A stretch of DNA of 22,491 nucleotides from a virus. The notes under the pieces were generated by a model. That model worked only from the letters and a program-made list of their open reading frames with translations, searched no databases and had not been told where the DNA came from. The stretch spans positions 1-22,491 of the IMG/VR virus record IMGVR_UViG_3300033153_010047; one strand, 5' to 3'. Shown here piece by piece: positions 870 through 22,237 of this stretch; the stretch's first letter is position 1; the number at the start of each line of letters is the position of its first letter. The translations under genes and the position numbers were made by a program.

Positions 870-894
870 AATGAACCTTACAAATGTTTTTAGT

Positions 895-934
895 ATTATA
901 TCTAAATTTCTTATAGAACTTGATGTAAGTCAAG
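895..934 (-). promoter_or_regulatory. Promoter for tape measure gene, sharing the palindrome
   Basis: On the minus strand TATAAT lies at 900-895, 26 bases upstream of the tape measure ATG. The palindrome at 919-934 lies upstream of it, centred 29 bp from the -10 centre, against 32 bp on the other side. The same site therefore sits between two divergent -10 boxes. The -10 box is seen; use by the same regulator is inference. Confidence 0.5.
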
Positions 935-961
935 GACAAAGATTTTAAAGTGCTATATAAT
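919..961 (+). promoter_or_regulatory. Palindrome-type promoter of the moron cassette (FNR/CRP-like box)
   Basis: CTTGATGTAAGTCAAG lies at 919-934 and a perfect TATAAT at 956-961. The right-arm TCA ends exactly 23 bases before the -10 box. The hexamer at the -35 position is AGGACA, a poor match to TTGACA. The box fits TTGAT-N4-RTCAA and is centred 32 bp upstream of the -10 centre, which corresponds to about -41.5. It drives the 57-residue ORF at 991. Confidence 0.75.
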
Positions 962-990
962 ACGATACATTAAAAAAACAAGGAGAATGT

Positions 991-1164
991 ATGTCAACAC
1001 ACATAGAGCTATCACTAGATGATGGAAAATTTACTATACTGAAAGAAGAAGTTCTTATGGTGACCGTAGGAGAGGGAACTGAAACTGCCGTGATACACAC
1101 AGATAATTTTGGAGAGCTACTCATAAAAGAATCTTATAAAGAGGTAAAAGAAAAGCTGATATAG
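991..1164 (+). CDS. Small acidic protein, 57 aa, first gene of moron cassette
   Basis: The ORF starts at the ATG at 991, preceded by AAGGAGAATGT, a strong ribosome binding site, and encodes 57 residues. The overlapping ATG at 987 gives only 11 codons, so 991 is the start. The protein alternates short polar and beta-like stretches and has a Lys/Glu-rich C-terminal helix. I recognise no family. It is the first gene after the palindrome promoter at 919-961 and has a second palindrome promoter after its stop. Both strand and position (between the G-T chaperone and the tape measure) are those expected of an accessory moron gene. Confidence 0.65.
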   Translation: MSTHIELSLDDGKFTILKEEVLMVTVGEGTETAVIHTDNFGELLIKESYKEVKEKLI

Positions 1165-1182
1165 TCGTAAAAACAAACTGTG

Positions 1183-1226
1183 CTTGACATAAAGTCAAGG
1201 ACAAAAATTTAAAAACACTATATAAT
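1183..1226 (+). promoter_or_regulatory. Palindrome-type promoter, second copy
   Basis: CTTGACATAAAGTCAAG lies at 1183-1199 and TATAAT at 1221-1226, again with exactly 23 bases between the right-arm TCA and the -10 box. Its -35 hexamer AGGACA is identical to that at 933-938. The arms are perfect inverted repeats, but the spacer is 5 bases rather than 4. It precedes the gene at 1250. Confidence 0.75.
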
Positions 1227-1249
1227 TTGGGTAAAGATTAGGAGATATT

Positions 1250-1627
1250 ATGAAGACAGTAAAAGCTAAAGACACAACTAAGAAATGTATAGAACTGTTA
1301 ATAGAGTGCATAGACAGAGGAGAGAATGTTATCTTTGTGACACAAGGAAATAAGCATGTAGTAGAAGAATGTGTAAAAACAAAAATCCTCCCTAGCGTAG
1401 AGAACAGACTAAAAGGCAAACAAAGAAAAAATGAACTTTATTTTCAAAGTGGGGCGAGAGTCATATTTATTGGAGACCGAGAAGAGCAAAGAAAGGTGCA
1501 GGTAGCAAATGCTTGGACTGTTAATAATTTGATAGTATGTAACACTACCAACTATAGTCCTTTAGATGAAAAAGAGAGATTTCTTAAAGACCCAAACTAT
1601 GTAATGGTTATAGAGATGTCTAAATGA
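1250..1627 (+). CDS. Hypothetical protein, 125 aa, moron cassette
   Basis: The start is the ATG at 1250, with GGAG six bases upstream. The protein looks like a compact alpha/beta fold. It has an N-terminal helix with two Cys, a strand GENVIFVTQG near residues 24-33, a second strand RVIFIGDREE near residues 70-79, and a third around NNLIVCNTTN. The spacing of hydrophobic strands followed by Gly or polar turns resembles a nucleotide-binding or Rossmann-like core, but there is no clear P-loop, so this is only a shape impression. Its stop overlaps the ATG of the next gene (ATGA), so the two are translationally coupled. Function unknown. Confidence 0.75.
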   Translation: MKTVKAKDTTKKCIELLIECIDRGENVIFVTQGNKHVVEECVKTKILPSVENRLKGKQRKNELYFQSGARVIFIGDREEQRKVQVANAWTVNNLIVCNTTNYSPLDEKERFLKDPNYVMVIEMSK

Positions 1628-1833
1628 AACTTTTTTCTATGAAAGAAATTATACAAGCGAAGATTATCATTAGAATAGATTATCTTTTAAAACAGTTAGA
1701 AGTAGTGGCTGAAGAGTTTGACTTTGAAGATGGCAGCGTTATGGAAAATGCTAAAAAAAGTCTTAATCAAAAAGATACAATAAAAAGAGCTAGAGCTATA
1801 CAGATGGAGTTGTCTTTATTGCAAGGTATTTAA
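1624..1833 (+). CDS. Small helical protein, 69 aa, moron cassette
   Basis: The gene overlaps the upstream stop by ATGA at 1624, which argues for coupling. A second possible start is the ATG at 1639. The product is predicted to be mostly helical and charged, with a Leu-rich segment (RIDYLLKQLEVVAEEFDF) and a C-terminal Lys/Arg-rich helix. There is no membrane segment and no family I recognise. Its coupling to the 125-residue protein suggests that the two act together, possibly as a complex; that is inference. Confidence 0.6.
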   Translation: MKLFSMKEIIQAKIIIRIDYLLKQLEVVAEEFDFEDGSVMENAKKSLNQKDTIKRARAIQMELSLLQGI

Positions 1834-1855
1834 CAAAACAAAAAAAAGGATATGT

Positions 1856-2260
1856 ATGTCTATTTTATTTAGGGGTGAGGCTGTGATTCAAAGCTATACT
1901 AAAGAGCTTGATGAATCTGAAAATTTAAAAAATATAGGTGGTGTGTGGTATGCTTTTTGTACTCTGTTTGAATACGAGATTGTAGATCTAACTCCACCTT
2001 ATTCAGGAGTTTCTCCTGATGATCGTCGCTTGTATTATCTTAAGGGTATGCAAGTAGTAGAGGGCACTATAGCTGTTCACACTCGTTACATGAAAGACAG
2101 CAAAGGAGATGCTATTTATGTTAGTCGTGAAGACAGTGGAAAAGGTGGAGATATATGTAACCATAAAGACTTTCCAAATGGATGTGCTATGGTGTTTAAA
2201 GACCCTATGGAAGAATATGTTAAGTATGATGATTTTACAATAGTAGGTATAAAGAAGTAG
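1856..2260 (+). CDS. Hypothetical protein, 134 aa, last gene of moron cassette
   Basis: The start at 1856 has AAAAAGGA just upstream; an ATG at 1852 lies in another frame. The protein is soluble and mixed alpha/beta, with several aromatic residues (GGVWYAFCTLFEYE, residues 29-42) and a Gly-rich turn SGKGGDICNHKDFPNG around residues 94-109 carrying Cys and His. I do not recognise the family. It ends 103 bases before the convergent end of the G-T frame and closes the cassette. The gap holds only weak hairpins and a degenerate copy of the palindrome. Confidence 0.7.
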   Translation: MSILFRGEAVIQSYTKELDESENLKNIGGVWYAFCTLFEYEIVDLTPPYSGVSPDDRRLYYLKGMQVVEGTIAVHTRYMKDSKGDAIYVSREDSGKGGDICNHKDFPNGCAMVFKDPMEEYVKYDDFTIVGIKK

Positions 2261-2281
2261 TTAGAAGTAAATATATGTTCT

Positions 2282-2330
2282 CCTCTGAAAAACAGAGGCA
2301 TCCCTAAGGAAATGTATTGGTATTTTACCA
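2282..2330. other. Two small hairpins between convergent genes
   Basis: CCTCTG (2282-2287) and CAGAGG (2293-2298) form a 6-bp stem with an AAAAA loop. TGGTA and TACCA around TTT form a second perfect small palindrome at 2318-2330. Neither has a proper T run on either strand. They may slow or end convergent transcription, but they are not convincing intrinsic terminators. Confidence 0.3.
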
Positions 2331-2336
2331 TCTTAT

Positions 2337-2350
2337 TTAATGTAAGTCAA
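2337..2350. promoter_or_regulatory. Degenerate copy of the palindrome box
   Basis: TTAATGTAAGTCAA keeps one perfect arm (GTCAAG with the next base) and shares the 11-base string TGTAAGTCAAG with the box at 919-934. No -10 box lies at the expected distance on either strand. It marks the right end of the moron cassette. It may be a remnant or an unused site. Confidence 0.4.
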
Positions 2351-2363
2351 GCTTTTGGTAAAC

Positions 2364-3238
2364 CTACGATTCCTCTTTAGGTTTTCGTAGGTTTTGTAGT
2401 ACTATGTTTTGGTAGATGTCTAAAGCCCATCTTACTTTTTTAACTGAGGTGTATAAAAAAGCTTCTTGGTATTTAGCTTCTTCCTTTATGGTTTTCATAT
2501 CTAAGTAAAGAACGTCACCCATGCCCGTGCGCATCCAGTAGTGACCTACTGAAAGTACGCAGTTTATATAGAACCATGCCATGTTGTGAACGATTGGTGG
2601 TTCAAACTGATTCTTTATGGAATCAGAGATGCGCTCGTTATCTTTGAAGCTATCCCAATCTTCTTTTTTTGTTTCCCTCCATGTAAAATAGAGTTCTAGT
2701 TCTTTCCCACTTTAGTATTTTTAGGGTCATTTTCATAACAGTACCAAAAGAAAAGTTTTTGGTCAAACTGATTCAATGCCTCAAAAGCTTCACTAAGACC
2801 ATAGTGTTCAGCATAAACTGCACCTTTTTCTTGTTCAGTTTCAACTTTTTCACATTTTTTATTTAATTTTTTTCTATGTTTGATGCCAACTGGCACTACT
2901 GCTTCATTTTTCTGGTAAAGGTCACATGGCTTTAGTTCACCGCTGTCATATTTCACGTTATATATTTTATCTATAACCAGTGCCGAGAATTTTGTAATGT
3001 TTTGGATGCTTGTATCATCTGGTAGTTCTTTTTCAGACAACTTAAAAGCCCATTCAGCAACTTCAATAAGTTCATTTTCATTTAGCTCTAAAGAGAATTC
3101 TTCTTCTGAGCTGTCTGCACCATAAACTCTATCTTCTATAAAAGAAGGAATACTGCCATCTGGTCTTTTTAATGGAAACTTTGATAGTGCTGTTTTTAGC
3201 ACGGCTGGTAATTTTGCGATTTGTTGTTTTTTTGTCAT
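2364..3238 (-). CDS. Tail assembly chaperone G-T fusion made by -1 frameshift
   Basis: This is the product expected when ribosomes slip back one base at GGGAAAG (2708-2702). The frame is read from 3238 to the AAG codon ending at 2702 (179 codons), then continues in the -1 frame from 2702 to the TAG at 2364-2366, adding 112 residues for a total of about 291. The -1 frame is open without interruption and encodes a plausible helical domain with a conserved-looking Trp/Tyr-rich stretch (MAWFYINCVLSVGHYWM). In lambda, G and G-T bind the tape measure protein and recruit tail tube subunits, and the slippery heptamer there is the same. The T part has no ribosome binding site of its own. Confidence 0.8.
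2696..3238 (-). CDS. Tail assembly chaperone (lambda G-like), 180 aa
   Basis: This is the main, unshifted product. It starts at the ATG at 3238 with AGGA seven bases upstream and stops one codon after the slippery site (TAG at 2696-2698). The protein is soluble and charged, with no signal or membrane segment. The middle is acidic (SSEEEFSLELNENELIEVAE). Its identity rests on position (between tail tube and tape measure), length and the G/G-T type frameshift at its end, since sequence in this family is poorly conserved. An 89-base gap with a stem-loop separates it from the tail tube gene and may lower its level relative to the abundant tube protein. Confidence 0.75.
   Translation of the reverse strand: MTKKQQIAKLPAVLKTALSKFPLKRPDGSIPSFIEDRVYGADSSEEEFSLELNENELIEVAEWAFKLSEKELPDDTSIQNITKFSALVIDKIYNVKYDSGELKPCDLYQKNEAVVPVGIKHRKKLNKKCEKVETEQEKGAVYAEHYGLSEAFEALNQFDQKLFFWYCYENDPKNTKVGKN
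2702..2708 (-). other. Programmed -1 frameshift site GGGAAAG
   Basis: On the minus strand the reading is GTG GGA AAG AAC TAG, so the heptamer G GGA AAG has the X XXY YYZ form in the zero frame and is followed within two codons by the stop. Re-pairing in the -1 frame gives GGG AAA and opens 112 further codons. No strong downstream pseudoknot is evident by eye; only a weak TAGA/TCTA stem follows. Confidence 0.85.
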
Positions 3239-5880: not shown

Positions 5881-6239
5881 AATGTCACCTTTTTAGTAGT
5901 TAGAGAAAAGGCTTTTTGAGAGCATATAACTACTAAGTCTACATCTGATGGGAAAGTCGTTGCCACATACCAAGTTTCTCCGCTGTGAGTTATCACATCG
6001 TTCATTTTGGAAGCTAGTTTTAAAAACTTTCCTTCATCATCTTTTGAGATTATAAACTTTTTACCTAGTAAAATAATCTCACCACTTACTTTGTAGTTTT
6101 CAAGTGGTTCTACTACGGCAAAAGTGTCTGAAGTTTCCTGCAAAACTCCACTTTTTTTATGCAGATATGCAATAGGAGCGGAAATAGCAGTACTTGCTAT
6201 AGTGACAATTTTTGTCATTGCTCCCATTATATTATCCAT
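5877..6239 (-). CDS. Head-tail connector protein (lambda FII position), 120 aa
   Basis: The start at 6239 has AAGG about eight bases upstream; other in-frame ATGs follow at codons 5 and 8. Residues 1-30 contain a small-residue helix (IVTIASTAISAPIAYL), after which the protein is mostly beta strand (VSGEIILLGKKFII, VDLVVICSQKAF). Size is close to lambda FII (117 residues), the head completion protein that forms the docking site for the tail. The short hydrophobic stretch could suggest membrane contact, but the operon context favours a virion protein. Coupled to the next gene through TTGA. Confidence 0.6.
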   Translation of the reverse strand: MDNIMGAMTKIVTIASTAISAPIAYLHKKSGVLQETSDTFAVVEPLENYKVSGEIILLGKKFIISKDDEGKFLKLASKMNDVITHSGETWYVATTFPSDVDLVVICSQKAFSLTTKKVTF

Positions 6240-6242
6240 TTT

Positions 6243-6743
6243 CTAGCCTTTTTTCTCTGCTAACTTAGCTTTAAGCGTTTCTAGCTTCCATTTTACTGTT
6301 GCTACAACTCCTAAGCCTCCTAACTCTTCAATTAAAATTCTTTTTTCATCTAAGTCAGGATCAGCACTTGCATCAGAATCACTTTTAGGCTTATCTTTTT
6401 TTGCTTCTGCTTTAAGTTGTGGAGCTACAGTTATTACTGGCTCTGTATTGGCTTTTGCTGGTGCTTGTAAAACCAAAGCCTCAAGCTTAGACTGAACAAT
6501 ATCATTAGAAAAAGGGATATTTAAACCTTTAGCTATTGCTACTAACTCAGGGTCCAATTGTGAAACCTCTTTCACATCACCAGAGATTCTAACTAATTCT
6601 TTCTCTAAAGCCTCTTTAAAAGGTGTTTGAGATGGTAACCAGTCTGGCATAGGCTTAGAAACAAGTGGGTGAAGTTTAATAAACTCACTTGTTCCTGCCT
6701 TTAAAAACTTCAACGCTATAGTTGAAATAACTGTTTTTTGCAT
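6243..6743 (-). CDS. FI-like head protein with C-terminal HeH/LEM-like motif, 166 aa
   Basis: The protein has a helical N-terminus, a Pro/Ala/Lys/Asp-rich linker at about residues 95-130 (APQLKAEAKKDKPKSDSDAS) and a compact C-terminal segment (EELGGLGVVATVKWKLETLKAKLAEK). The last part resembles the small two-helix HeH/LEM-type motif found at the end of several phage head proteins such as lambda FI. It lies between the capsid gene and the FII-position gene, with stop and start only three bases apart. In lambda FI aids DNA packaging by helping terminase dock on the prohead; that role here is inferred from position and the motif. Confidence 0.6.
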   Translation of the reverse strand: MQKTVISTIALKFLKAGTSEFIKLHPLVSKPMPDWLPSQTPFKEALEKELVRISGDVKEVSQLDPELVAIAKGLNIPFSNDIVQSKLEALVLQAPAKANTEPVITVAPQLKAEAKKDKPKSDSDASADPDLDEKRILIEELGGLGVVATVKWKLETLKAKLAEKKG

Positions 6744-6744
6744 C

Positions 6745-7734
6745 TTACACTTCCCAGATTTCTACTGTGTTTTTACGTTTCACATCAAGACCAAGTTGCA
6801 TAGAAGTAAATGTTGCTGTAACATTGTTTCCAGTTAAGTCTTTGCTGATTGCAGATTTACCGCCAATAAGGTGTGCGGCAAAAGGGTTTTCATAAGAGAT
6901 GTATTTCTTTTCAATAAGTCCAAGAATCATAACTTTATGAGTTCCACCCTTTAACACTAATGGAATTTGACCAACACCAGTATCTTCAATAAACTTAACT
7001 GTAATTTGGAGTTCATCTTCAAAATATTCTACTAGCTCTTTAAACGCAGACTTTTTGTTTGCTGGCATATCAGTAGATTCTGTTTGAACTCTTTTAAGTT
7101 TGTTTAAAGTACCTGTGTCCATGCGGATAGTAATAGTCGCTCTCGAAACAGCTATGTCTGGAACATCAGCTTCATCGTTGATGCCATCTATGTAGCTGTG
7201 AACGATAGCTTTCATTTGAGTTACTAACTCTTGAGCATCTGTTGTATCTGCAAAAGATTGTGCTAAAGCGGTTGCAGCTCTAGTGATAAATGGATGTGTT
7301 CCAAAACCATAAATACCCATAGCTGTATACTTAGCAGTTGAGCCATAAGCAATATTATCGGCGATATTATAGTGAGACTCAAAGTTTGCTTTTAAGTCTG
7401 CTCTTAATACCTCTGTATTAACTTTGTTGCCGTGTCTTAAGTAGTCACCTTGCGATACTTTTGCAGCCGATTGAAAAAATCCACCATCACTAAGAGTAAA
7501 AGTTTTTTGGATTGATGAAGAGATAACTGGAACAGAACTAGAGTTAGCGTCTGTAAGTTCAGCTTCTCCTATAATTATTCTTGAAACTGTAGAACTTTTA
7601 ATTTGTTGTTGCCAGTTTCCTGACACATTGATTATTCCACTTAGATTTTCAGCAAGCAAAGAAGTATCTTCTCTTGCCTCTGTTCTAATTGCTGCCACAT
7701 TTCCTAATATATATGATGTTGCGATTGATAACAT
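6745..7734 (-). CDS. Major capsid protein, 329 aa
   Basis: Length is right for a lambda E-type or DUF2184-type capsid protein. Several stretches look like HK97-fold capsid parts. These are an N-terminal region ending in ISSSIQKTFTLSDGG, a segment around residues 110-130 (IAYGSTAKYTAMGIYGFGTHP), a helix and strand region (AVSRATITIRMDTGTLNKL) typical of the A and P domains, and a C-terminal strand (LGLDVKRKNTVEIWEV). I favour a DUF2184-like family, but this is from memory of pattern, not a search. It sits directly after the decoration gene and before the FI-position gene, as in lambda D-E-FI. Confidence 0.75.
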   Translation of the reverse strand: MLSIATSYILGNVAAIRTEAREDTSLLAENLSGIINVSGNWQQQIKSSTVSRIIIGEAELTDANSSSVPVISSSIQKTFTLSDGGFFQSAAKVSQGDYLRHGNKVNTEVLRADLKANFESHYNIADNIAYGSTAKYTAMGIYGFGTHPFITRAATALAQSFADTTDAQELVTQMKAIVHSYIDGINDEADVPDIAVSRATITIRMDTGTLNKLKRVQTESTDMPANKKSAFKELVEYFEDELQITVKFIEDTGVGQIPLVLKGGTHKVMILGLIEKKYISYENPFAAHLIGGKSAISKDLTGNNVTATFTSMQLGLDVKRKNTVEIWEV

Positions 7735-7743
7735 TTCTACTCC

Positions 7744-8307
7744 TTACCAGATTTCTATTACTGCATCGCCAAATGCAGCTGCACCGATTCTAACGATTGC
7801 ATTTGGGATAAGTTCAGTATTTGCATCATTTACTGATGTAATACCGCCTAAAACAAGACCATTTTCAGTTGTTGCAGCGTCTGCTACGTTTATTCTCATA
7901 TAAACTGCACCGTCTACTGCTAAAATAGCTTCAGTTTTAACTCCAAAGAAACCTTTTCTTCCAACTGTTACTGGTTGATATTCTTTTACGAATTCCGTTT
8001 GACCTTGACCTACCGGTGCTGAAATTGTATCTTGTGAATAACCATCAATTTCTAAGTTTGTATCTAATGGTTCACGTTGAATAAGAGTAATTCCTATGAA
8101 CTTATTCGCAGATGTTGTTGCGCCGTTTCCAAGCTGGTCGCCATCGTCACGAACCTGTGCTTCACCTTCTGTTCCAGTACCTACTACTGCGATACCATAA
8201 CCTACATTTGATCCTACAATTTGTTTAGGCTCATCAAGTTGTGCTGACGTTTCTTTCCAAACTTTACCTGGTACTACTACTTGTGTAGCTGTTTTTGTTG
8301 CTGCCAT
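7744..8307 (-). CDS. Head decoration / cement protein (lambda D position), 187 aa
   Basis: The product is beta-rich, with many Val, Gly, Thr and Ala residues. The middle (NVGYGIAVVGTGTEGEAQVRDDGD, starting near residue 34) and the C-terminus (PNAIVRIGAAAFGDAVIEIW) look like the small beta-barrel proteins that stabilise expanded capsids. It is longer than lambda D (110 residues) and closer in size to cement proteins of other siphoviruses. The start at 8307 is one base after the protease/scaffold stop, so the two are coupled. No Cys residues are present, as is common in virion surface proteins. Exact family not assigned. Confidence 0.65.
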   Translation of the reverse strand: MAATKTATQVVVPGKVWKETSAQLDEPKQIVGSNVGYGIAVVGTGTEGEAQVRDDGDQLGNGATTSANKFIGITLIQREPLDTNLEIDGYSQDTISAPVGQGQTEFVKEYQPVTVGRKGFFGVKTEAILAVDGAVYMRINVADAATTENGLVLGGITSVNDANTELIPNAIVRIGAAAFGDAVIEIW

Positions 8308-8760
8308 TTAAAACTCCTCTGACATTTTTTGTACATCTTCTGGGACTTCATCTTTGTTTAAAGAATCATCTCCGCCTGTTTGTGGTGCTGAACTAGATGC
8401 CATAGCTTTATGTAATGATAGTTCTAAATTAACCATATCTGCGCCACCATCACTTAAGAGTGTTACCTCATCAAGAGTTTTCATTTTCACATCTGCTGCT
8501 ACACCACCAAAAGATTCTGATGTTACCATCGTTAAAACTGCTTTCATTGACGTTTGCATATTTAATAGTTTTACACCATCTTGCGTGTCTCTGTCTGCTA
8601 TAGCTTGTGTGTGTGATGCAGTAAGTGTTGCTACCTCATCATTTTTTGCTGTTAGTGTTGCAGAATCTACTCCGCCTAACAATGCCACTATCGCATTTTT
8701 ATCTTCTGAGGAAGCTGTTGCTGCGAATACTTTTATACCATTTGATGTTGTTACATCCAT
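8308..8760 (-). CDS. Nested scaffold protein (Nu3-like), 150 aa
   Basis: This is an in-frame internal start inside the protease gene. The ATG at 8760 (residue 228 of the long product, MDVTTSNG) is preceded by AAGGA with a 7-base spacing, as good as any ribosome binding site in the operon. The product begins exactly where the scaffold-like region begins and shares its C-terminus with the long protein. It is acidic, rich in Ala/Thr/Asp, and ends with DVQKMSEEF. Separate expression of scaffold in excess over protease is the known arrangement in lambda (C/Nu3); here it is inferred from the start signal. Confidence 0.65.
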   Translation of the reverse strand: MDVTTSNGIKVFAATASSEDKNAIVALLGGVDSATLTAKNDEVATLTASHTQAIADRDTQDGVKLLNMQTSMKAVLTMVTSESFGGVAADVKMKTLDEVTLLSDGGADMVNLELSLHKAMASSSAPQTGGDDSLNKDEVPEDVQKMSEEF

Positions 8761-9441
8761 ATCGTTTTCCTTTTGTTGAATTTGAGTTGGCTTATCTATA
8801 GTATCCAATAAGCTTGCCATTGATTTTAGTTCCTCAGAGTACCCTTCTTTTTTGAAGTTTTTTAAACACTCCTGAGAATTTCTTGCATTACAAGCTAAAG
8901 CTTTTTCTTTAAAGCTTGCTATACTATCTGTTTTATTTAAAACCTCTAACTCTCCTGATTCTTTAATTTCTGTTGCAAAGCCTGAATCTAGTATTTCTTG
9001 ACCAAAAAGCCACTTCTCTGCTATCAATTCTGCTTCTATCTCGTTTTCTGTTCTGTTTGATATTCTACTGTAGTCTCTTTTAAATATACCAAATACCCCT
9101 TTAAGATAGTTAGCTCTTTCTTGGACTACCACATATGTACCCCACACTCCGCTTGATGGAGGATGAGCCATATATGCTGAGTTGCTATAAACTACTCTCT
9201 CTTCACCTGCTAGAAAAATATAACTTGCTGCTGATACCGCTTGACCCATTATTACAGTTGTTATTTTCCCTTTTGTGTAGTTTTTTAAAAGATTAAATAT
9301 TCTAACTGCTTCAAAGACATCTCCACCATCTGATGATATTTCTACAGTTATGTCACCTGTTGCAGATTTTAGTTGTTTATTTACTCTGTCTGCTGTTACT
9401 CCGTAGTATGGTGATATGTCATCATCTATTAGTATTTGCAT
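8308..9441 (-). CDS. Prohead protease (ClpP/S49 type) fused to scaffold (lambda C), 377 aa
   Basis: The N-terminal 175 residues are a ClpP-like serine protease. The oxyanion/Gly motif EISSDGGDVFEA lies at 34-45, the likely catalytic Ser is S70 in GQAVSAAS, and the likely His is H93 in YMAHPPS. The C-terminal half, after a linker with two Cys (CNARNSQEC), is low in complexity, rich in Ala, Thr, Asp and Glu, and helical, as expected for scaffold. An internal ATG at 8760 with a strong ribosome binding site allows the scaffold to be made alone, as for C/Nu3 in lambda. The start at 9441 overlaps the portal stop by one base. The protease removes scaffold and matures the prohead. Confidence 0.85.
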   Translation of the reverse strand: MQILIDDDISPYYGVTADRVNKQLKSATGDITVEISSDGGDVFEAVRIFNLLKNYTKGKITTVIMGQAVSAASYIFLAGEERVVYSNSAYMAHPPSSGVWGTYVVVQERANYLKGVFGIFKRDYSRISNRTENEIEAELIAEKWLFGQEILDSGFATEIKESGELEVLNKTDSIASFKEKALACNARNSQECLKNFKKEGYSEELKSMASLLDTIDKPTQIQQKENDMDVTTSNGIKVFAATASSEDKNAIVALLGGVDSATLTAKNDEVATLTASHTQAIADRDTQDGVKLLNMQTSMKAVLTMVTSESFGGVAADVKMKTLDEVTLLSDGGADMVNLELSLHKAMASSSAPQTGGDDSLNKDEVPEDVQKMSEEF

Positions 9442-11246: not shown

Positions 11247-11285
11247 ATTATATCATAAAGTCTCGTTTTCTTGATGTGTGTCAAG
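11247..11285 (-). promoter_or_regulatory. Promoter of the head-tail operon sharing the palindrome
   Basis: On the minus strand a perfect TATAAT at 11252-11247 lies 31 bases upstream of the gpW-like start. The palindrome at 11270-11285 lies upstream, its centre 28 bp from the -10 centre. The same box drives the plus-strand gene at 32 bp spacing. The site thus sits between two divergent promoters. Confidence 0.5.
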
Positions 11286-11312
11286 GAAAATGTTTTTTAG
11301 TTGTTGTATAAT
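11270..11312 (+). promoter_or_regulatory. Palindrome-type promoter of the zinc-ribbon gene
   Basis: CTTGATGTGTGTCAAG lies at 11270-11285 and TATAAT at 11307-11312, with exactly 23 bases between the right-arm TCA and the -10 box. The -35 position reads AGGAAA, as in the promoter at 18078-18120. The start codon follows at 11333. Confidence 0.75.
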
Positions 11313-11332: not shown

Positions 11333-11494
11333 ATGGCAAGATATAACTATAGATGCGAAAACTGTAAAAAAGAAACAGTGATATCAAAACCTATGATAGA
11401 ATCTAGTAGAGATGAGTTTTGTACTAAGTGTGAAGCAAAACTAACTAGAGTATATAGTATTGCTGTTAAGACTGGTGATGGATTTAAAAGTTAG
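11333..11494 (+). CDS. FmdB-like zinc-ribbon protein, 53 aa (moron)
   Basis: A 53-residue ORF from the ATG at 11333 with AAAGGA upstream. It begins MARYNYRCENCKKE and has paired CxxC motifs at C8/C11 and C30/C33, the small zinc-ribbon layout of FmdB-type and transcription-factor-like proteins. The rest is polar and basic, ending VYSIAVKTGDGFKS. It lies between terminase and gpW on the opposite strand, has a palindrome promoter, and its stop overlaps the convergent terminase stop by four bases. It probably binds nucleic acid or a protein partner; its role is unknown. Too short for many gene finders, but the metal-binding pattern, ribosome binding site and promoter make it credible. Confidence 0.75.
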   Translation: MARYNYRCENCKKETVISKPMIESSRDEFCTKCEAKLTRVYSIAVKTGDGFKS

Positions 11495-13587: not shown

Positions 13588-13839
13588 ATGGCTAGTGAAA
13601 ATTTAACTCTTACAGGGAGTCAACAATCCACCGTTTCAGTAGGAGGTCTTGCTGCCTACTCTGTGCAAAATAGGTTCAATACTGACTTGTATTTCAAAGA
13701 AGTTGGTGCTGATGATTCAGTTTATGGTTTTATTCCGCAAGGAACATTTGATAATTTTGATAGAGATATGGTGTTTTGGTATCCAGAAGCTTCCGATGCA
13801 GAAATCCGAGATGTTTATATTCTAAGGAGTTTAACATGA
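13588..13839 (+). CDS. Small virion-associated protein upstream of tail fibre, 83 aa
   Basis: The start is the ATG at 13588 with AAAGGA upstream. The sequence is beta-rich and Gly/Ser/Thr-rich at the N-terminus (TLTGSQQSTVSVGGLAAYSV), with a Tyr/Asp-rich second half. It has no signal or membrane segment. Its stop overlaps the fibre gene start (ATGA), so the two are made together, which suggests a fibre-attachment or baseplate role. I recognise no family. It is divergent from terminase, an unusual position for a tail gene in the lambda order. Confidence 0.65.
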   Translation: MASENLTLTGSQQSTVSVGGLAAYSVQNRFNTDLYFKEVGADDSVYGFIPQGTFDNFDRDMVFWYPEASDAEIRDVYILRSLT

Positions 13840-16580
13840 TTCCTGGTGATGATAAAAGTTTTGGTGTCAATGATGTACTTTCTCCTGTCACTCCCATCAA
13901 TAGACTTATAACTGAAACTGAACTTGGTGCTTCTGGTGGTGGAGACATGCTTAAAAGCAACTACGATCCAAACACTAAAACTGCAGATGCTTTCAGTATG
14001 GATAATATGGATGAAGGAACAGATACAAAGATACTTACAGCTACTGAGCGTACTGAGATAGCAAAAGTAGCAGATAAGGTTGATAAAGTTGCAGGAAAAG
14101 GATTATCGGCAAATGACTTTACAAATACTCTAAAAACAAAACTTGATAGTGTAGAGGCAGATGCAACAGCAGACCAAACAGCTAATGAAGTTGCAATCAC
14201 GACTATTATCGGAAGCCCCTCACACGGTACAAACATTCAATCAATGAACCAATTGGTAAACACCTCAGGTGTAGTATCAGGAAGTGATTTAATCGACCAT
14301 GATAACGGCACGGTAACCATTGAAACTGGGACGGCATTTTTAAGAAGCACCTCAGACAGTAGAGAACCATTATTTGCAGTAGAAGTTGCACAAAGTGAGG
14401 TTTTATCATTAGTAGATGACTCTATGAATTTTATATATGTAGAGTACAACGGTGGGACACCTCAATTTGGTGTAACTCAGGTACAAAGCTATATAAATTG
14501 CCAAGATAGATGTTTAGCATATATCGTTCACAGAGAGGGCAATATACTTCATTACATAGATGATAGACAACATGGAATAGATGTATCTAAAAAAACAAGA
14601 GGAGTATTTAGAGACTTTTCATACTTTATTCATGCTCAGGGTGGTTCAGTATTATCAGAGCCAGCAGATTTAGCTATAGGATTAACAGCAGGTAGATTTT
14701 ACTACACCGTTACGAAACTAGACCATACGGCATTTAATACAAGTGTAGCAGGTACTGAGTCGGATAACGTCTTTAAGCTATCCTATAGAGATGATTCAGG
14801 AGGCTGGACTACACAAGTAGAACAAAAAGTAATAGATACAAATACCTATGATGACGATACAGGAACTCCTGCAACATTAGGTAATTCAAAATATGGTGTT
14901 TCGTGGGTTTATATGGTACATAATGCTCCAAGTGACTTACATATCATCATGGGTCAAGAAGAGTACGCTTCACGAGCAGCAGCAGAAGTTGCTACAGTTC
15001 CCTCGGAAGTTCCAAGTATAATTACTGGCTTAGGCTCTTTAGTTGGTTTTGTAGTTTACCAAAAAGGCTCAACTTCATTCGATAATGTTTTAAGTGCATT
15101 TGCTCAAACTTTCACTGGTTCAGCACCGACAAATCATAATAATCTAGCAGGGTTACAAGGTGGGGCTTTAGGAGATTATCAGCATTTAACAACAGCTCAG
15201 GTTGCTTTAGTAGATGGAAGTGTTCAAAATACTGGCGACACTATGACTGGTGCTTTAGAAGTTAGAATAGAAGATGCAGTTAATAATGATTTTTCAAAAG
15301 CACTCTTATTATCTCACAAAACAACAGGGACTCCAGCCAACGGAATAGGAGTTAGAATAGATTTTGAAGCAGAAGATGATGGTGGAAATGTAGCAACAAT
15401 AGGCTATATAAAACATAGACTTGTTGATGTTACTGATGGTGCGGAAAAGTCCACTATGTCTTTTTCTACTCGTAACGGTGGTTCTATATCTGATAAAATG
15501 ACTATTGATGAAGTTGGAAACATTGGAATAGGAACAAACAGTGCCGATGAATTATTACATACTAAAAAAACAAACGGAGATAACTTCTTAAAGCTTGAAA
15601 ACTCAGGAGATACTAATTACTCTGGAATATTTTTCACGAGAGAAACATCAGCAGCAGAAGACCAAGGTGGTGCTTATATTAGGATGCAATCTAATACAGC
15701 AAATACAACTGGTATATTAGAATTTGGTGTAGGTAGTAATATTAACAGTGATACAGCAACGACTGATATGGTTATTAATAATAACAAAATAGGGGTAGGA
15801 ACAACAGAGCCTGATACTATCCTACATGTCACAACAGAAGACAATACAATCTTAAGGCTTGAAAATTCAGCTACTGCTCTCACTACTGATGATAGAGTTG
15901 GAGAGATTGATTTTTATGCAAACGATGGCTCTACAAATGGAACAGGTGCAAAAGTAAATATAAAAGCAGTTGTAGAGAGTACAGCAGGTACATTAGTTGG
16001 TTTGTCATTAGGAACATCTGACAGTACATCTGCTACAGCAGTTGAAAGAGTTAGAATTTCAGCGTCTGGTAATATAGAAATGCCAACAGTAGGTGCAAGC
16101 ATTACAATGACTTCATCAAATGGAGTTACGCATAAAATAAACAGAACATTAGGAAGTTTATTAGGCGCAACAGTACCAACTAGTATACCAGCCGATTTAG
16201 TAAATGGTACGGCTATAGTAAACTATACAAGTAAGATAGAATTAACAACCCTTGCAGATTTAACAACGGGCGTTATATCTATCCAGCATAGTGGTACTTA
16301 TAGATTAAATCTTAGTTTGCATATGGAGTTTGACAATGTAGGGCAGCAAGGGAATAAAGAATTTTGGTTTGATTTAGTTGATGTAACTGGAACACCAACA
16401 ACAGTTAGGTCGATAAAAGGTTTTATTTTAGATAGTTCAGAAACATATAGTTTTAATGATAATGGAGCTACTATTTTAACAGGTGGACATGATTATCAAA
16501 TGGAAATAAGAAGTGAGAGTGCTTTGACTGGATTTAGTTTTTCATCTTCAACTTTTTATATAGAGTCAATACTATACTAA
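13836..16580 (+). CDS. Tail fibre / receptor-binding protein, 914 aa
   Basis: I start at the ATG at 13836, which overlaps the upstream stop (ATGA) and has AAGGAG upstream. The longer in-frame start at 13776 would add 20 residues read out of frame over the previous gene. The N-terminus is linker-like. Around the middle lie fibre motifs HNNLAGLQGG, GDYQHLTTAQ and NTGDTMTGALEV, then three repeats of the GNIGIGT type (beta-helical or prism shaft, with FLKLENSGD and TILRLENSAT). The final 150 residues (HSGTYRLNLSLHMEFDNV and the strands after it) resemble a C1q/TNF-like trimeric tip. It probably binds the host surface. The gene ends 109 bases before a terminator. Confidence 0.85.
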   Translation: MIPGDDKSFGVNDVLSPVTPINRLITETELGASGGGDMLKSNYDPNTKTADAFSMDNMDEGTDTKILTATERTEIAKVADKVDKVAGKGLSANDFTNTLKTKLDSVEADATADQTANEVAITTIIGSPSHGTNIQSMNQLVNTSGVVSGSDLIDHDNGTVTIETGTAFLRSTSDSREPLFAVEVAQSEVLSLVDDSMNFIYVEYNGGTPQFGVTQVQSYINCQDRCLAYIVHREGNILHYIDDRQHGIDVSKKTRGVFRDFSYFIHAQGGSVLSEPADLAIGLTAGRFYYTVTKLDHTAFNTSVAGTESDNVFKLSYRDDSGGWTTQVEQKVIDTNTYDDDTGTPATLGNSKYGVSWVYMVHNAPSDLHIIMGQEEYASRAAAEVATVPSEVPSIITGLGSLVGFVVYQKGSTSFDNVLSAFAQTFTGSAPTNHNNLAGLQGGALGDYQHLTTAQVALVDGSVQNTGDTMTGALEVRIEDAVNNDFSKALLLSHKTTGTPANGIGVRIDFEAEDDGGNVATIGYIKHRLVDVTDGAEKSTMSFSTRNGGSISDKMTIDEVGNIGIGTNSADELLHTKKTNGDNFLKLENSGDTNYSGIFFTRETSAAEDQGGAYIRMQSNTANTTGILEFGVGSNINSDTATTDMVINNNKIGVGTTEPDTILHVTTEDNTILRLENSATALTTDDRVGEIDFYANDGSTNGTGAKVNIKAVVESTAGTLVGLSLGTSDSTSATAVERVRISASGNIEMPTVGASITMTSSNGVTHKINRTLGSLLGATVPTSIPADLVNGTAIVNYTSKIELTTLADLTTGVISIQHSGTYRLNLSLHMEFDNVGQQGNKEFWFDLVDVTGTPTTVRSIKGFILDSSETYSFNDNGATILTGGHDYQMEIRSESALTGFSFSSSTFYIESILY

Positions 16581-16733: not shown

Positions 16734-17072
16734 TTATACCCCTCCCTCTCCTGTATATTCTAGTTTTAAAGTTTTCCATGCTGATTCTGTAGAACGACTT
16801 GCAGTAAGACCATCACCACCATTATCAATTAAACTTACATTTTCTAATTTATTGTCTCCATTATCACCCCAACTATACAAAAGAGTGTCTTTGTGCGAAA
16901 TAATTACTTTTTTATCTGCATGAGCAGCGACAGCGGTTTTTCCTTTTTGACGAGCATTTACATTTTCTTGACCAGCATTTATATTGAAAGTATTTCCAAT
17001 ATTTGGTGGACTTGCATATAATGAGCTAATTAAGCCCATGAACATCATAAATAAGAATAAAATCTTTTTCAT
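16734..17072 (-). CDS. Small exported protein, 112 aa
   Basis: A Sec signal peptide is clear: MKK, a hydrophobic core ILFLFMMFMGLISSL, then YA followed by SPP, giving probable cleavage after residue 20. The mature 92 residues are soluble, with Asn/Gly/Lys-rich loops, a Trp near the middle (TLLYSWGDNGDN) and a C-terminal ESAWKTLKLEYTGEGGV. I do not recognise the family. It is likely periplasmic or secreted, since there is no lipobox and no further membrane segment. It follows the SPFH lipoprotein gene on the same strand after a 143-base gap. An accessory role on the infected host is likely; it has no place in the virion module. Confidence 0.7.
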   Translation of the reverse strand: MKKILFLFMMFMGLISSLYASPPNIGNTFNINAGQENVNARQKGKTAVAAHADKKVIISHKDTLLYSWGDNGDNKLENVSLIDNGGDGLTASRSTESAWKTLKLEYTGEGGV

Positions 17073-17215: not shown

Positions 17216-18046
17216 TTATTTTACTTGAAACATAGGCTGTGGATTTCCACCCATGATGAGACTTATGCTAATTTTACCTTCTTTCGCACCCTCTATTGCA
17301 AGTTTTTGATTATCTAGTTTTTTCATTTCTAAATATTGTGTTGGACTCATACCTATAGCCTCCATATAAGCCTTGTCTGCATTAGCCGATGCTGTCTCAG
17401 CATTTTCTCTTGACTCTTCGGCTTTAACTCTCTCTTCTTGAGTCTTAACATTTTGCTTTTGCACAGCAGTTTGTATAGTAGAGGCAATTACTGCTTTAGG
17501 AGGCATCACCTTACCTACAGTTGCTTTTATTAGCTCAGTTGGAATACCCTCATCTTTTAAAAATTTTCTAACCTCTATTGTAACCTGATTTTCTAACTCG
17601 GTGGTTATTTTTCCATCTGTAGTCATTTCAAACATTTTATGTGCTTTTGTAAAGTTACGGACTGAATTTCTTAGTGGCTCACGAACCTTGTTTTTGTACC
17701 ATCCTACTACGCCAAATTTCTCGACAAGTATTGGCGTTTTACCTTCAATGTGTTTTAGCGTTAAATGTATTTTAAAATCTACTGGATTATTATCAGAAGT
17801 TACCAAATCATCAAAGACCTCATTCACATTAAAAGGCTTAATGTTAACTCTCTCTACTGACGTACTCCACACAGTCCACGCTAACCCTGTTTTAACTGAT
17901 GTCTGATCCACTCCACCGTGACCAAAAACCCAAGGTTTATAAATCAGAACTCCCTCTTCACCTGCATCTACACTAGATGGACTCAAACAACCCTGAAATG
18001 TAAACATTCCTACTATAAGCATAAAGCTTGCTATTATTTTTTTCAT
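17216..18046 (-). CDS. SPFH/Band-7 (prohibitin-like) lipoprotein, 276 aa
   Basis: The N-terminus is a lipoprotein signal: MKK, hydrophobic IIASFMLIVGMFTF, lipobox FQGC with the lipidated Cys at 20. It is followed by DAGEEGVLIYKPW, the usual beginning of an SPFH/Band-7 domain, which runs to about residue 200 (VDFKIHLTLKHIEGKTP, EKFGVVGWYKNKVREPLR). The rest is Ala/Glu-rich coiled coil (EERVKAEESRENAETASA). SPFH proteins oligomerise on membranes and scaffold or protect membrane proteins. A lipid anchor places this one on the outer face of a membrane, so it may act in the envelope of the infected cell. It is controlled by its own palindrome promoter just upstream and has a good ribosome binding site, AAGGAG. 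Confidence 0.85.
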   Translation of the reverse strand: MKKIIASFMLIVGMFTFQGCLSPSSVDAGEEGVLIYKPWVFGHGGVDQTSVKTGLAWTVWSTSVERVNIKPFNVNEVFDDLVTSDNNPVDFKIHLTLKHIEGKTPILVEKFGVVGWYKNKVREPLRNSVRNFTKAHKMFEMTTDGKITTELENQVTIEVRKFLKDEGIPTELIKATVGKVMPPKAVIASTIQTAVQKQNVKTQEERVKAEESRENAETASANADKAYMEAIGMSPTQYLEMKKLDNQKLAIEGAKEGKISISLIMGGNPQPMFQVK

Positions 18047-18077: not shown

Positions 18078-18120
18078 ATTATATACTATCTTTTGAATTG
18101 TTTCCTTGACTTACATCAAG
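18078..18120 (-). promoter_or_regulatory. Palindrome-type promoter of the SPFH lipoprotein gene
   Basis: On the minus strand CTTGATGTAAGTCAAG lies at 18120-18105, the same 16 bases as at 919-934. TATAAT lies at 18083-18078, 23 bases after the right-arm TCA. The -35 position reads AGGAAA. The RusA stop codon TGA lies inside the left arm. Confidence 0.8.
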
Positions 18121-20265: not shown

Positions 20266-20414
20266 TATTTCTTCCCTTTCTTGCTTTTTACTATAGATTC
20301 AGCTTTTACACCTTTTAAAAGTTCTTTAATTTGGTCTGCTCCAAATCTCTGTCCGTCTGCTTGCAAAGAGCCTAGTTGAAACTTAGCTTGTCCATCTTTA
20401 TTAAAAGCTGTCAT
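20265..20414 (-). CDS. Small basic protein, 49 aa
   Basis: The ATG at 20414 overlaps the stop of the methyltransferase gene (ATGA), a strong sign of coupling. The product is 49 residues: a polar N-terminus (MTAFNKDGQAKFQLGSLQAD), a short helix (GADQIKELLKGVKAES) and a basic tail IVKSKKGKK, which suggests nucleic acid binding. No family recognised. Its stop overlaps the start of the next gene by one base. Confidence 0.6.
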   Translation of the reverse strand: MTAFNKDGQAKFQLGSLQADGQRFGADQIKELLKGVKAESIVKSKKGKK

Positions 20415-21133
20415 CTTTCTAACCTCCCATCTAGTCTAAGCTGAGTTATTTTTTTCCATGTAAGACCTTGTAACTGAATACTATTGATTACTTTATCATC
20501 TTCGCAGATTCCATTGTCTATGCCTATGCTGCTTATGCCTAGTTCTTCGCATGCTACCATCGTTGAGCCACTACCTTTAAAAGGGTCTAAAACTACTTGC
20601 CCTTTTTTTACTGAGTTAGATACATACATCTTCATTAAATCTACTGGTTTTTCAGTAGGATGAAGTTTGTTTCTTGGGTTTTTAGACTCATGTACTGTTT
20701 GTGATCCACAGTTGTTTATAAACTTTGCTTTTCCTTTTCTAGCAAAGATAGTGTACTCACAGTTTTTCATATACCATTTGTTTGGTGTTGGAGTATTCTT
20801 TTTCCACACCAAAAGGTTATGAATCACAAAACCAGCATTTTCAATCTCAGTCATCATCTTTTGAAGATTTAAAAGATTTGTCATCACATAGATATGAGAA
20901 TCGTCATTTAGAATCTCATAACACTTAGGCAACCACTCACTAAACTCTGGAATACTTTTCATAAGCTGCTTATTTGCAGTAAGTATACCAGATGGTTTTC
21001 CTTTTTGACCATTCTTCCCACCGGTAATAACTTTGTAAGCTGGGTCTGTAACTACAGCATCAACTTTTACACCGTCTACTATAAGCTTATCTAAAACCTC
21101 TAAAACATCTCCATGATACAAATCGTGTTTCAT
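20411..21133 (-). CDS. DNA amino-methyltransferase (N6-adenine or N4-cytosine), beta type, 240 aa
   Basis: The catalytic motif IV is TDPAY at 29-33, in place of the common DPPY/SPPY, and the SAM-binding motif I is DPFKGSGST at 183-191 near the C-terminus. This order (IV before I) is the beta class. HPTEKPVDLM at 158-167 is the typical motif X. The true start is the ATG at 21133, with AGAGGAGA upstream; an in-frame GTG at 21166 lies over the -10 box and is rejected. It probably methylates phage DNA to resist host restriction; there is no restriction enzyme nearby. It has its own palindrome promoter in the end of the C5-methyltransferase gene. Confidence 0.88.
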   Translation of the reverse strand: MKHDLYHGDVLEVLDKLIVDGVKVDAVVTDPAYKVITGGKNGQKGKPSGILTANKQLMKSIPEFSEWLPKCYEILNDDSHIYVMTNLLNLQKMMTEIENAGFVIHNLLVWKKNTPTPNKWYMKNCEYTIFARKGKAKFINNCGSQTVHESKNPRNKLHPTEKPVDLMKMYVSNSVKKGQVVLDPFKGSGSTMVACEELGISSIGIDNGICEDDKVINSIQLQGLTWKKITQLRLDGRLER

Positions 21134-21156
21134 AATCTCTCCTCTAATTTTAATGT

Positions 21157-21199
21157 ATTCTACCACACATACTAAACACTACTCTTGATTTGTGTCAAG
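21157..21199 (-). promoter_or_regulatory. Palindrome-type promoter of the amino-methyltransferase gene
   Basis: On the minus strand CTTGACACAAATCAAG lies at 21199-21184 and TAGAAT at 21162-21157, again with 23 bases between the right-arm TCA and the -10 box. The -35 position reads AGAGTA. The box encodes the last residues ELDTNQE of the upstream gene. Confidence 0.7.
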
Positions 21200-22177
21200 T
21201 TCTAGTGGTATGTGTCTAAAGATGTGAGCAGGTACGTCTATAGTCCATCCGTTTCCTATCATGTGGTATCTCCAGAACTTTGGAACACCTAAAGTAAAGC
21301 CGACAGGAAGAGTTTGTGTTTTTTCACACTCTTCTGGTGTAAGAAATCTCCATTTGTCTCTATTTTCTTTACCTATTAGATTACATTTGTCTATATGGGG
21401 CTTGTTTTCTCCAGTAACAGACTTCATAAACTCTTCATCAGTAAAAACTATCTGTCGTGAACCTCTATATAAGTACCTTCTTAAATTTGAACCTTTGCCA
21501 TAGTTTGCATCTATGCAAAAGCTTTTTTCTCTATCTGTATATGCATTATCTAATATGTCTTGTAATTTTACATCTTTTTGTTTTATTGGCTTTATATCTT
21601 GAATATTTGTCCAATAAAATCTTTTTCTCATCCCTGCACAGACTTCTTCACTATCTATCCTAAGAGGTTCTACTCCCATTGCTTGGTTAAACATAGGTAG
21701 CCATTTAGGATTTATTTTTACATTTTCTAAAAAAAAGTAGTCTGGTTGTATTTCTTTTTGAAGTCTTACAAATTCCCAGAAGAGATAAGACTGTCCGTTA
21801 AACTCAAAATTTTGTGCTTTTAAGTCCATATACTGCTCTAGCGAAACAACATCTATACCACAAGCTGTTGATGAGCCTTGAAGTTTTCCAGCCATAGAGA
21901 AACCTTGACATGGTGAACCACCTATGAGGATGATTTTTACATCTCCGAACTCTTCTCTGATTTCTTTAAGTAGTTTATGTCCATCTAATTTTGTAATATC
22001 TCCTAATCTATATGGAGTATCTTGTGGGTAGTTGTGGTCTGCTACTTGAATGGCATACTTATCTACTTCTGAACTATAGTATCTTAAAACATCTATATGT
22101 TCCACTCTATCAAACGCTATGCGCCCACCGCTCAAACCATCAAACCCACTTACAACTACTACTGGTAACTTTTCCAT
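21179..22177 (-). CDS. C5-cytosine DNA methyltransferase, 332 aa
   Basis: The family motifs are all present in order: motif I SGFDGLSGGRIAF at 10-22, motif IV GGSPCQGFS at 87-94 with catalytic Cys90, motif VI FLENV at 149-153, motif VIII RKRFYWTN at 183-190 and motif X GNGWTIDVPAHIF near 308. The form FDGLSGGRIA rather than FxGxGG, and the compact target recognition region, resemble the Dnmt3-like phage enzymes. It probably protects phage DNA. The start at 22177 has AAAGGA upstream. The promoter at 22195 directs it. No partner restriction enzyme is present. Confidence 0.9.
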   Translation of the reverse strand: MEKLPVVVVSGFDGLSGGRIAFDRVEHIDVLRYYSSEVDKYAIQVADHNYPQDTPYRLGDITKLDGHKLLKEIREEFGDVKIILIGGSPCQGFSMAGKLQGSSTACGIDVVSLEQYMDLKAQNFEFNGQSYLFWEFVRLQKEIQPDYFFLENVKINPKWLPMFNQAMGVEPLRIDSEEVCAGMRKRFYWTNIQDIKPIKQKDVKLQDILDNAYTDREKSFCIDANYGKGSNLRRYLYRGSRQIVFTDEEFMKSVTGENKPHIDKCNLIGKENRDKWRFLTPEECEKTQTLPVGFTLGVPKFWRYHMIGNGWTIDVPAHIFRHIPLELDTNQE

Positions 22178-22194
22178 ATATATCCTTTTATAAA

Positions 22195-22237
22195 ATTATA
22201 CCTACATTAGAATCTAAACTTATTGACTTACATCAAT
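22195..22237 (-). promoter_or_regulatory. Palindrome-type promoter of the C5-methyltransferase gene
   Basis: On the minus strand ATTGATGTAAGTCAAT lies at 22237-22222 and TATAAT at 22200-22195, with 23 bases between. The -35 position reads ATAAGT. The outer base pair is A-T here where the others have C-G, so the pairing is kept. The box encodes the last residues of the upstream ORF. Confidence 0.75.

Follow-up and report, generated by a model that had tools for sequence, protein, structure and literature searches.

Why would a phage carry four small genes, facing the other way, in the middle of its tail operon? The locus lies in the virus record IMGVR_UViG_3300033153_010047 (positions 1 to 22,491), and we refer to the whole of this 22,491-base stretch as the window. 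The lambda-like head and tail genes of the window are on the - strand. An earlier note on this DNA had placed four + strand genes of 57, 125, 69, and 134 aa between the G/G-T pair and the tape measure gene and had described two of them as ATGA-coupled; the list of open reading frames (ORFs) confirmed this arrangement, and the coupling was borne out for ORF2 and ORF3. The features of the locus are as follows.

3 to 869, - strand: N-terminal part of the tape measure gene, which runs off the window (ORF list)
895 to 900, - strand: -10 element for the tape measure gene, 19 bp away from the palindrome core
919 to 961, + strand: ORF1 promoter, CTTGATGTAAGTCAAG, 21 bp, TATAAT
991 to 1164, + strand: ORF1, 57 aa, no family
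1183 to 1226, + strand: promoter of ORF2, ORF3, and ORF4, CTTGACATAAAGTCAAG, 21 bp, TATAAT
1250 to 1627, + strand: ORF2, 125 aa, no family over cut-off
1624 to 1833, + strand: ORF3, 69 aa, ATGA overlap with ORF2
1856 to 2260, + strand: ORF4, 134 aa, homologue in another phage record (L116, 11400 to 11768)
2339 to 2351, + strand: partial palindrome copy, atgtaagtcaag, far edge of the block
2696 to 3238, - strand: G, within the G/G-T pair at 2364 to 3238

Each of the four ORFs shows a coding signal (z 3.3 to 4.9 versus base shuffles) in no frame but its own, and ribosome sites of the type GGAG/AGGA precede ORF1, ORF2, and ORF4. On the flanks, a -1 frame from GGGAAAG at 2708-2702 yields a 291-residue G-T product ending at 2364 on the - strand, and judged from the sequence the G-T frame is real. 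The N-terminus of the tape measure protein is 27% identical (E 5e-13) to the start of a 2374-aa frame in the related phage record IMGVR_UViG_3300023210_000088 (G001, also L008). A scan for block terminators returned 0 terminator-like sites, and a hairpin without a T run was seen by eye at 2282-2298. The partial palindrome at 2339-2351 matches the one in the first promoter and might mark the edge of the block as the remnant of an earlier promoter copy or as a site of recombination.

The earlier note had read the block as a moron-type insertion, and this reading is supported by related phages that lack the block at the same site. Specifically, G001, which is identical to the window at 70% of positions in the terminase, 72% in the tail tube, and 61% in G, has ~340 bases separating G-T from the tape measure gene, with a single opposite-strand ORF for an unrelated hydrophobic protein of 63 aa. 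In L136, in which G is 53% identical to that of the window and the same GGGAAAG is found, the site is empty because the tape measure gene starts inside the end of G-T. The site is also empty in the Nitratiruptor phage NrS-4, in which the start of the tape measure gene overlaps the preceding gene. The four genes are, therefore, not a constant part of this position in related phages. The position had also been taken to be an unusual one, and this part was not borne out because gp15 of HK97, annotated as a moron, sits at the same place between G-T and the tape measure gene (gene H). On these comparisons, the block counts as a variable insertion, placed where morons were already known; relatives have the two flanking genes without it, and it has its own promoters, two in number by sequence and statistics. 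HK97 gp15, which acts in superinfection exclusion, is non-structural and missing from relatives of HK97; however, it is one gene on the tail-gene strand, whereas the block comprises four genes on the opposite strand with a shared promoter type, and searches with ORF1, ORF2, and ORF4 detected no homology. Similarly, Tab of the Pseudomonas phage JBD26 is a small opposite-strand gene with its own promoter inside the late operon, but it lies between the terminase genes and its promoter is reported to be constitutive in the prophage (PMC10884400).

A second site of variable opposite-strand ORFs is the junction at which the terminase gene meets the next head gene; the ORFs there change from phage to phage. 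In the window the occupant is an FmdB-like gene, and G001, L004, and NrS-4 have different opposite-strand ORFs; in the window, L004, and G001 the same palindrome lies between divergent promoters. The coordinates concerned are the following.

Window, 11333 to 11494
L004, 5489 to 6158
L007, 7385 to 7829
L132, 20739 to 21332

The two palindrome promoters that the earlier note assigned to the block are present, but they are not specific to it and belong to a phage-wide set. In the window, the same promoter type recurs at four other positions.

11270 to 11312, + strand: before the FmdB-like gene
18078 to 18120, - strand: before the Band 7 lipoprotein gene (17216 to 18046)
21157 to 21199, - strand: before the N6/N4 DNA methyltransferase gene
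22195 to 22237, - strand: before the C5 DNA methyltransferase gene (21179 to 22177)

Sites of the form TTGAY-N4/5-RTCAA were observed 6 times in the window versus 0.39 expected. In six of six, a -10 element (counted if at least five of six bases match) lies exactly 22 bp past the core, and this combination occurred 0 times in 200 shuffles; the promoter geometry is beyond chance. Five sites are exact, combining N6 spacing with 22 bp to the -10 element, and in the ORF2 promoter the arms are one base further apart (N7). Each of the six sites precedes an accessory gene, i.e. ORF1, ORF2, and the genes for the FmdB-like protein, the Band 7 lipoprotein, and the two methyltransferases. The two methyltransferase genes are adjacent (20411-22177), each with a separate Crp/Fnr-type promoter, and the lipoprotein gene was assigned to Band 7/SPFH by Pfam (E 1.2e-15) and phrog_200 (E 1e-25).

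The promoter type is common to the window and at least eight other phage records, including records with different terminases. G001 and L004, whose selection rested on protein similarity rather than on the promoter pattern, have six further sites and two sites with exact spacing, respectively; G001 has in addition a single-mismatch site before its 63-aa ORF, and spacings of 21 and 23 bp gave nothing in these two records. Further records came from a pattern scan. Most of the loci that it returned were set aside as chance matches, with spacings of 21, 22, and 23 all occurring among the pattern-fetched ones, and only records with at least three sites were kept. Those designated G004 to G009 have three to six sites each. 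Across nine records, 39 sites were counted versus 0 matches to the reversed pattern, and their consensus is TTGAYnTARRTCAAG-N21-TATAAT, in which the palindrome arms, the central TA, one G, and the -10 element are conserved while the intervening bases vary and no -35 element is conserved. The pattern used for the 39 sites placed no demand on the central TA, on the final G, or on the third to fifth -10 positions; because the scan that fetched G004 to G009 demanded the G and TATAAT, unbiased support for these two elements comes from the window, G001, and L004. The pattern was absent from NrS-4 and SNW-1, two phages of Campylobacterota. Judged from their ORFs, several pattern-fetched records look related to the phage group of the window. 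By eye, L061 encodes a homologue of a small window protein (16734-17072), L017 has a dUTPase-like protein as does G001, L062 has an SSB of the G001 type, and L116 has a RusA-like protein. With a promoter grammar shared across different phages of one host group, accessory genes can be sought from sequence alone; several related phage records, one of them with an ORF4 homologue, came out of the pattern scan. Morons at this position were already known; the new part is the promoter set, and what reads the promoters can be proposed from its geometry.

Crp/Fnr proteins at class II promoters bind at about -48 to -35. In the phage promoters, the palindrome core starts 36 bases before the -10 element and thus spans ~-48 to -35, and by sequence the sites have the TTGA-N6-TCAA centred near -41.5 that is expected of a class II Crp/Fnr promoter. 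In Campylobacterota, the sites of the Nss-type Crp/Fnr regulator are TTGA-N6-TCAA, as in Nitrosophilus labii and Wolinella succinogenes, and in N. labii exact sites precede the predicted starts of napA, norE, and nosB by 49, 48, and 48 bases, respectively (PMC11539149). As far as sequence can tell, the phage palindromes match these sites in both letters and distance (about -48); the known targets are host denitrification genes, whereas here the genes are those of a phage and the sites are predicted. Because the promoters match sites of a regulator of nitrogen respiration, the respiratory state of the host may control the four genes. According to a review, Campylobacterota have no known FNR orthologues (PMC6682613), and therefore only other Crp/Fnr members would fit.

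That the host is most likely a member of the Campylobacterota is suggested by the SSB of G001, which is 60 to 70% identical to the SSBs of nine plasmids from this phylum and at most 45% to the listed proteins from other phyla. The window terminase gave no alignment to genome contigs. An alphaproteobacterial metagenome-assembled genome with one methyltransferase match in a genome contig was not taken as the host. No Crp-type helix-turn-helix domain over the cut-off was found in 18 phage records, which favours a host protein; the records are fragments, and a phage regulator may lie outside them. Further observations count against this explanation, namely the N7 spacing of the ORF2 palindrome, which a Crp/Fnr dimer may tolerate poorly, the absence of the pattern from NrS-4 and SNW-1, and, with regard to a prophage state, that no integrase was seen.

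The palindromes also face structural operons. The one of the ORF1 promoter is common to the tape measure promoter on the opposite strand, and at 919-934 and 11270-11285 TATAAT lies 19 and 18 bp away, respectively, on the structural side, the second of these sites facing the - strand operon that leads to the portal gene. The corresponding sites of G001 and L004 have structural-side spacings of 17 to 19 bp. In this arrangement the palindrome core overlies the -35 region of both structural promoters, tape measure and portal, and a dimer bound there would probably impede RNA polymerase. Our working hypothesis is that the block is a moron cassette of two units, ORF1 and ORF2-ORF3-ORF4, each with a class II promoter, and that a Crp/Fnr-type dimer on TTGAYnTARRTCAA near -41.5 would recruit RNA polymerase to a -10 element that has no conserved -35 element. 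The regulator would most likely be the host's own Nss/Dnr-type Crp/Fnr protein, responding to nitrogen oxides or low oxygen. A dimer at 919-934 would at the same time cover the -35 region of the opposite-strand tape measure promoter and block it, so that a single site may turn the accessory genes on and hold the structural genes off. At OR, lambda CI switches on one promoter from about -42 and shuts off the divergent one, a precedent for one protein with both activities; here, however, there is a single Crp/Fnr-type site per switch and no repressor gene was identified. We regard it as an even call that the block is a moron cassette of a Campylobacterota phage under a host Crp/Fnr regulator, with the same site blocking the tape measure promoter. 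The wider proposal, in which environmental phages place different cargo at different positions under a nitrogen-oxide or redox regulator of the host and hold both head and tail operons off from one divergent Crp/Fnr site while accessory genes are on, so that the respiration of the host would set the phage programme, is more tentative, and we rate it below even.

None of the four products has a recognised family, as the earlier note had stated. The one Pfam match for ORF2, Pyr_redox_3 (E 9.5e-5), was set aside at 22 bits versus a curated cut-off of 30, as was an impression from strand and helix order of a terminase-like ATPase core without a P-loop, which no search backs. Structure models were too poor for use (pLDDT 54 for ORF2 and 34 for ORF4), and Foldseek with the ORF2 model gave no reliable match. 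ORF1 had only matches at E 0.4 or worse in phage records, all in phages other than HK97. For ORF2 and ORF4, these searches found no homologues in IMG/VR, phages, or plasmids save one chance-level plasmid match of ORF4, and no matches in phage records including HK97. The sole homologue detected for any of the four is that of ORF4 in L116, where it lies behind the terminase gene and behind the same promoter type. A T..KD..G..IY pattern noticed by eye suggested that ORF4 might be YopX (PF09643); the tests failed, with no Pfam match for ORF4 or its homologue and a probability of 0.4% in a profile comparison, albeit one made with two-sequence profiles. YopX-like proteins are encoded elsewhere in related phages, at 9658-10050 in L116 (PF09643 over cut-off) and at 13473-13916 in L008 (E 0.076). 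Because of the position, the strand, the own promoters, and the company of methyltransferases and a lipoprotein, a role of the products outside the virion is most likely, and exclusion of other phages or counter-defence, as for HK97 gp15 and Tab of JBD26, would be plausible examples.

It is possible, if on the unlikely side, that the palindrome is instead the operator of a phage-encoded, lambda CI-like regulator that turns on the accessory promoters from about -41.5 and keeps the structural operons repressed, in which case the cassette would follow lysogeny or an early/late switch of the phage and not host respiration. The sites are phage-wide and occur at accessory and structural promoters alike, as would suit such a regulator, and the early region of G001 encodes a small XRE-type protein and a KilA-N protein. 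The XRE protein, however, finds no counterpart in ten other records, the majority of which bear the sites; the records with different terminases share the sites, so that a common regulator would have been missed in all of them; and the site is of the Crp/Fnr type, for which no protein was found in the phages.

We consider it improbable that the palindromes are inert promoter parts, spread by duplication and recombination and read by no regulator. Copying has left traces, since the first promoter and the lipoprotein promoter are alike over 71 bases (82% identity) and the first two promoters are 86% identical over 35 bases; yet over the 39 sites the conservation is restricted as described above, and conserved elements with variable bases between them argue for constraint and not for copying. 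Least probable is that the four products are structural or assembly proteins of the tail: the block does lie inside the tail operon, and another + strand gene (13776-16580) looks fibre-like, but relatives keep the flanking tail genes without the block, and its promoters match those of the methyltransferase and lipoprotein genes.

If a host regulator reads the sites, nitrate, nitric oxide, or oxygen would govern both the accessory functions and the silencing of the structural genes in bacteria of redox gradients. We also note that in L008 (G001) a reverse transcriptase-like protein (6168-7553) is encoded beside a 461-aa variable, lectin-type-like protein (7854-8951), as read by eye, and that this pair is possibly a diversity-generating retroelement.
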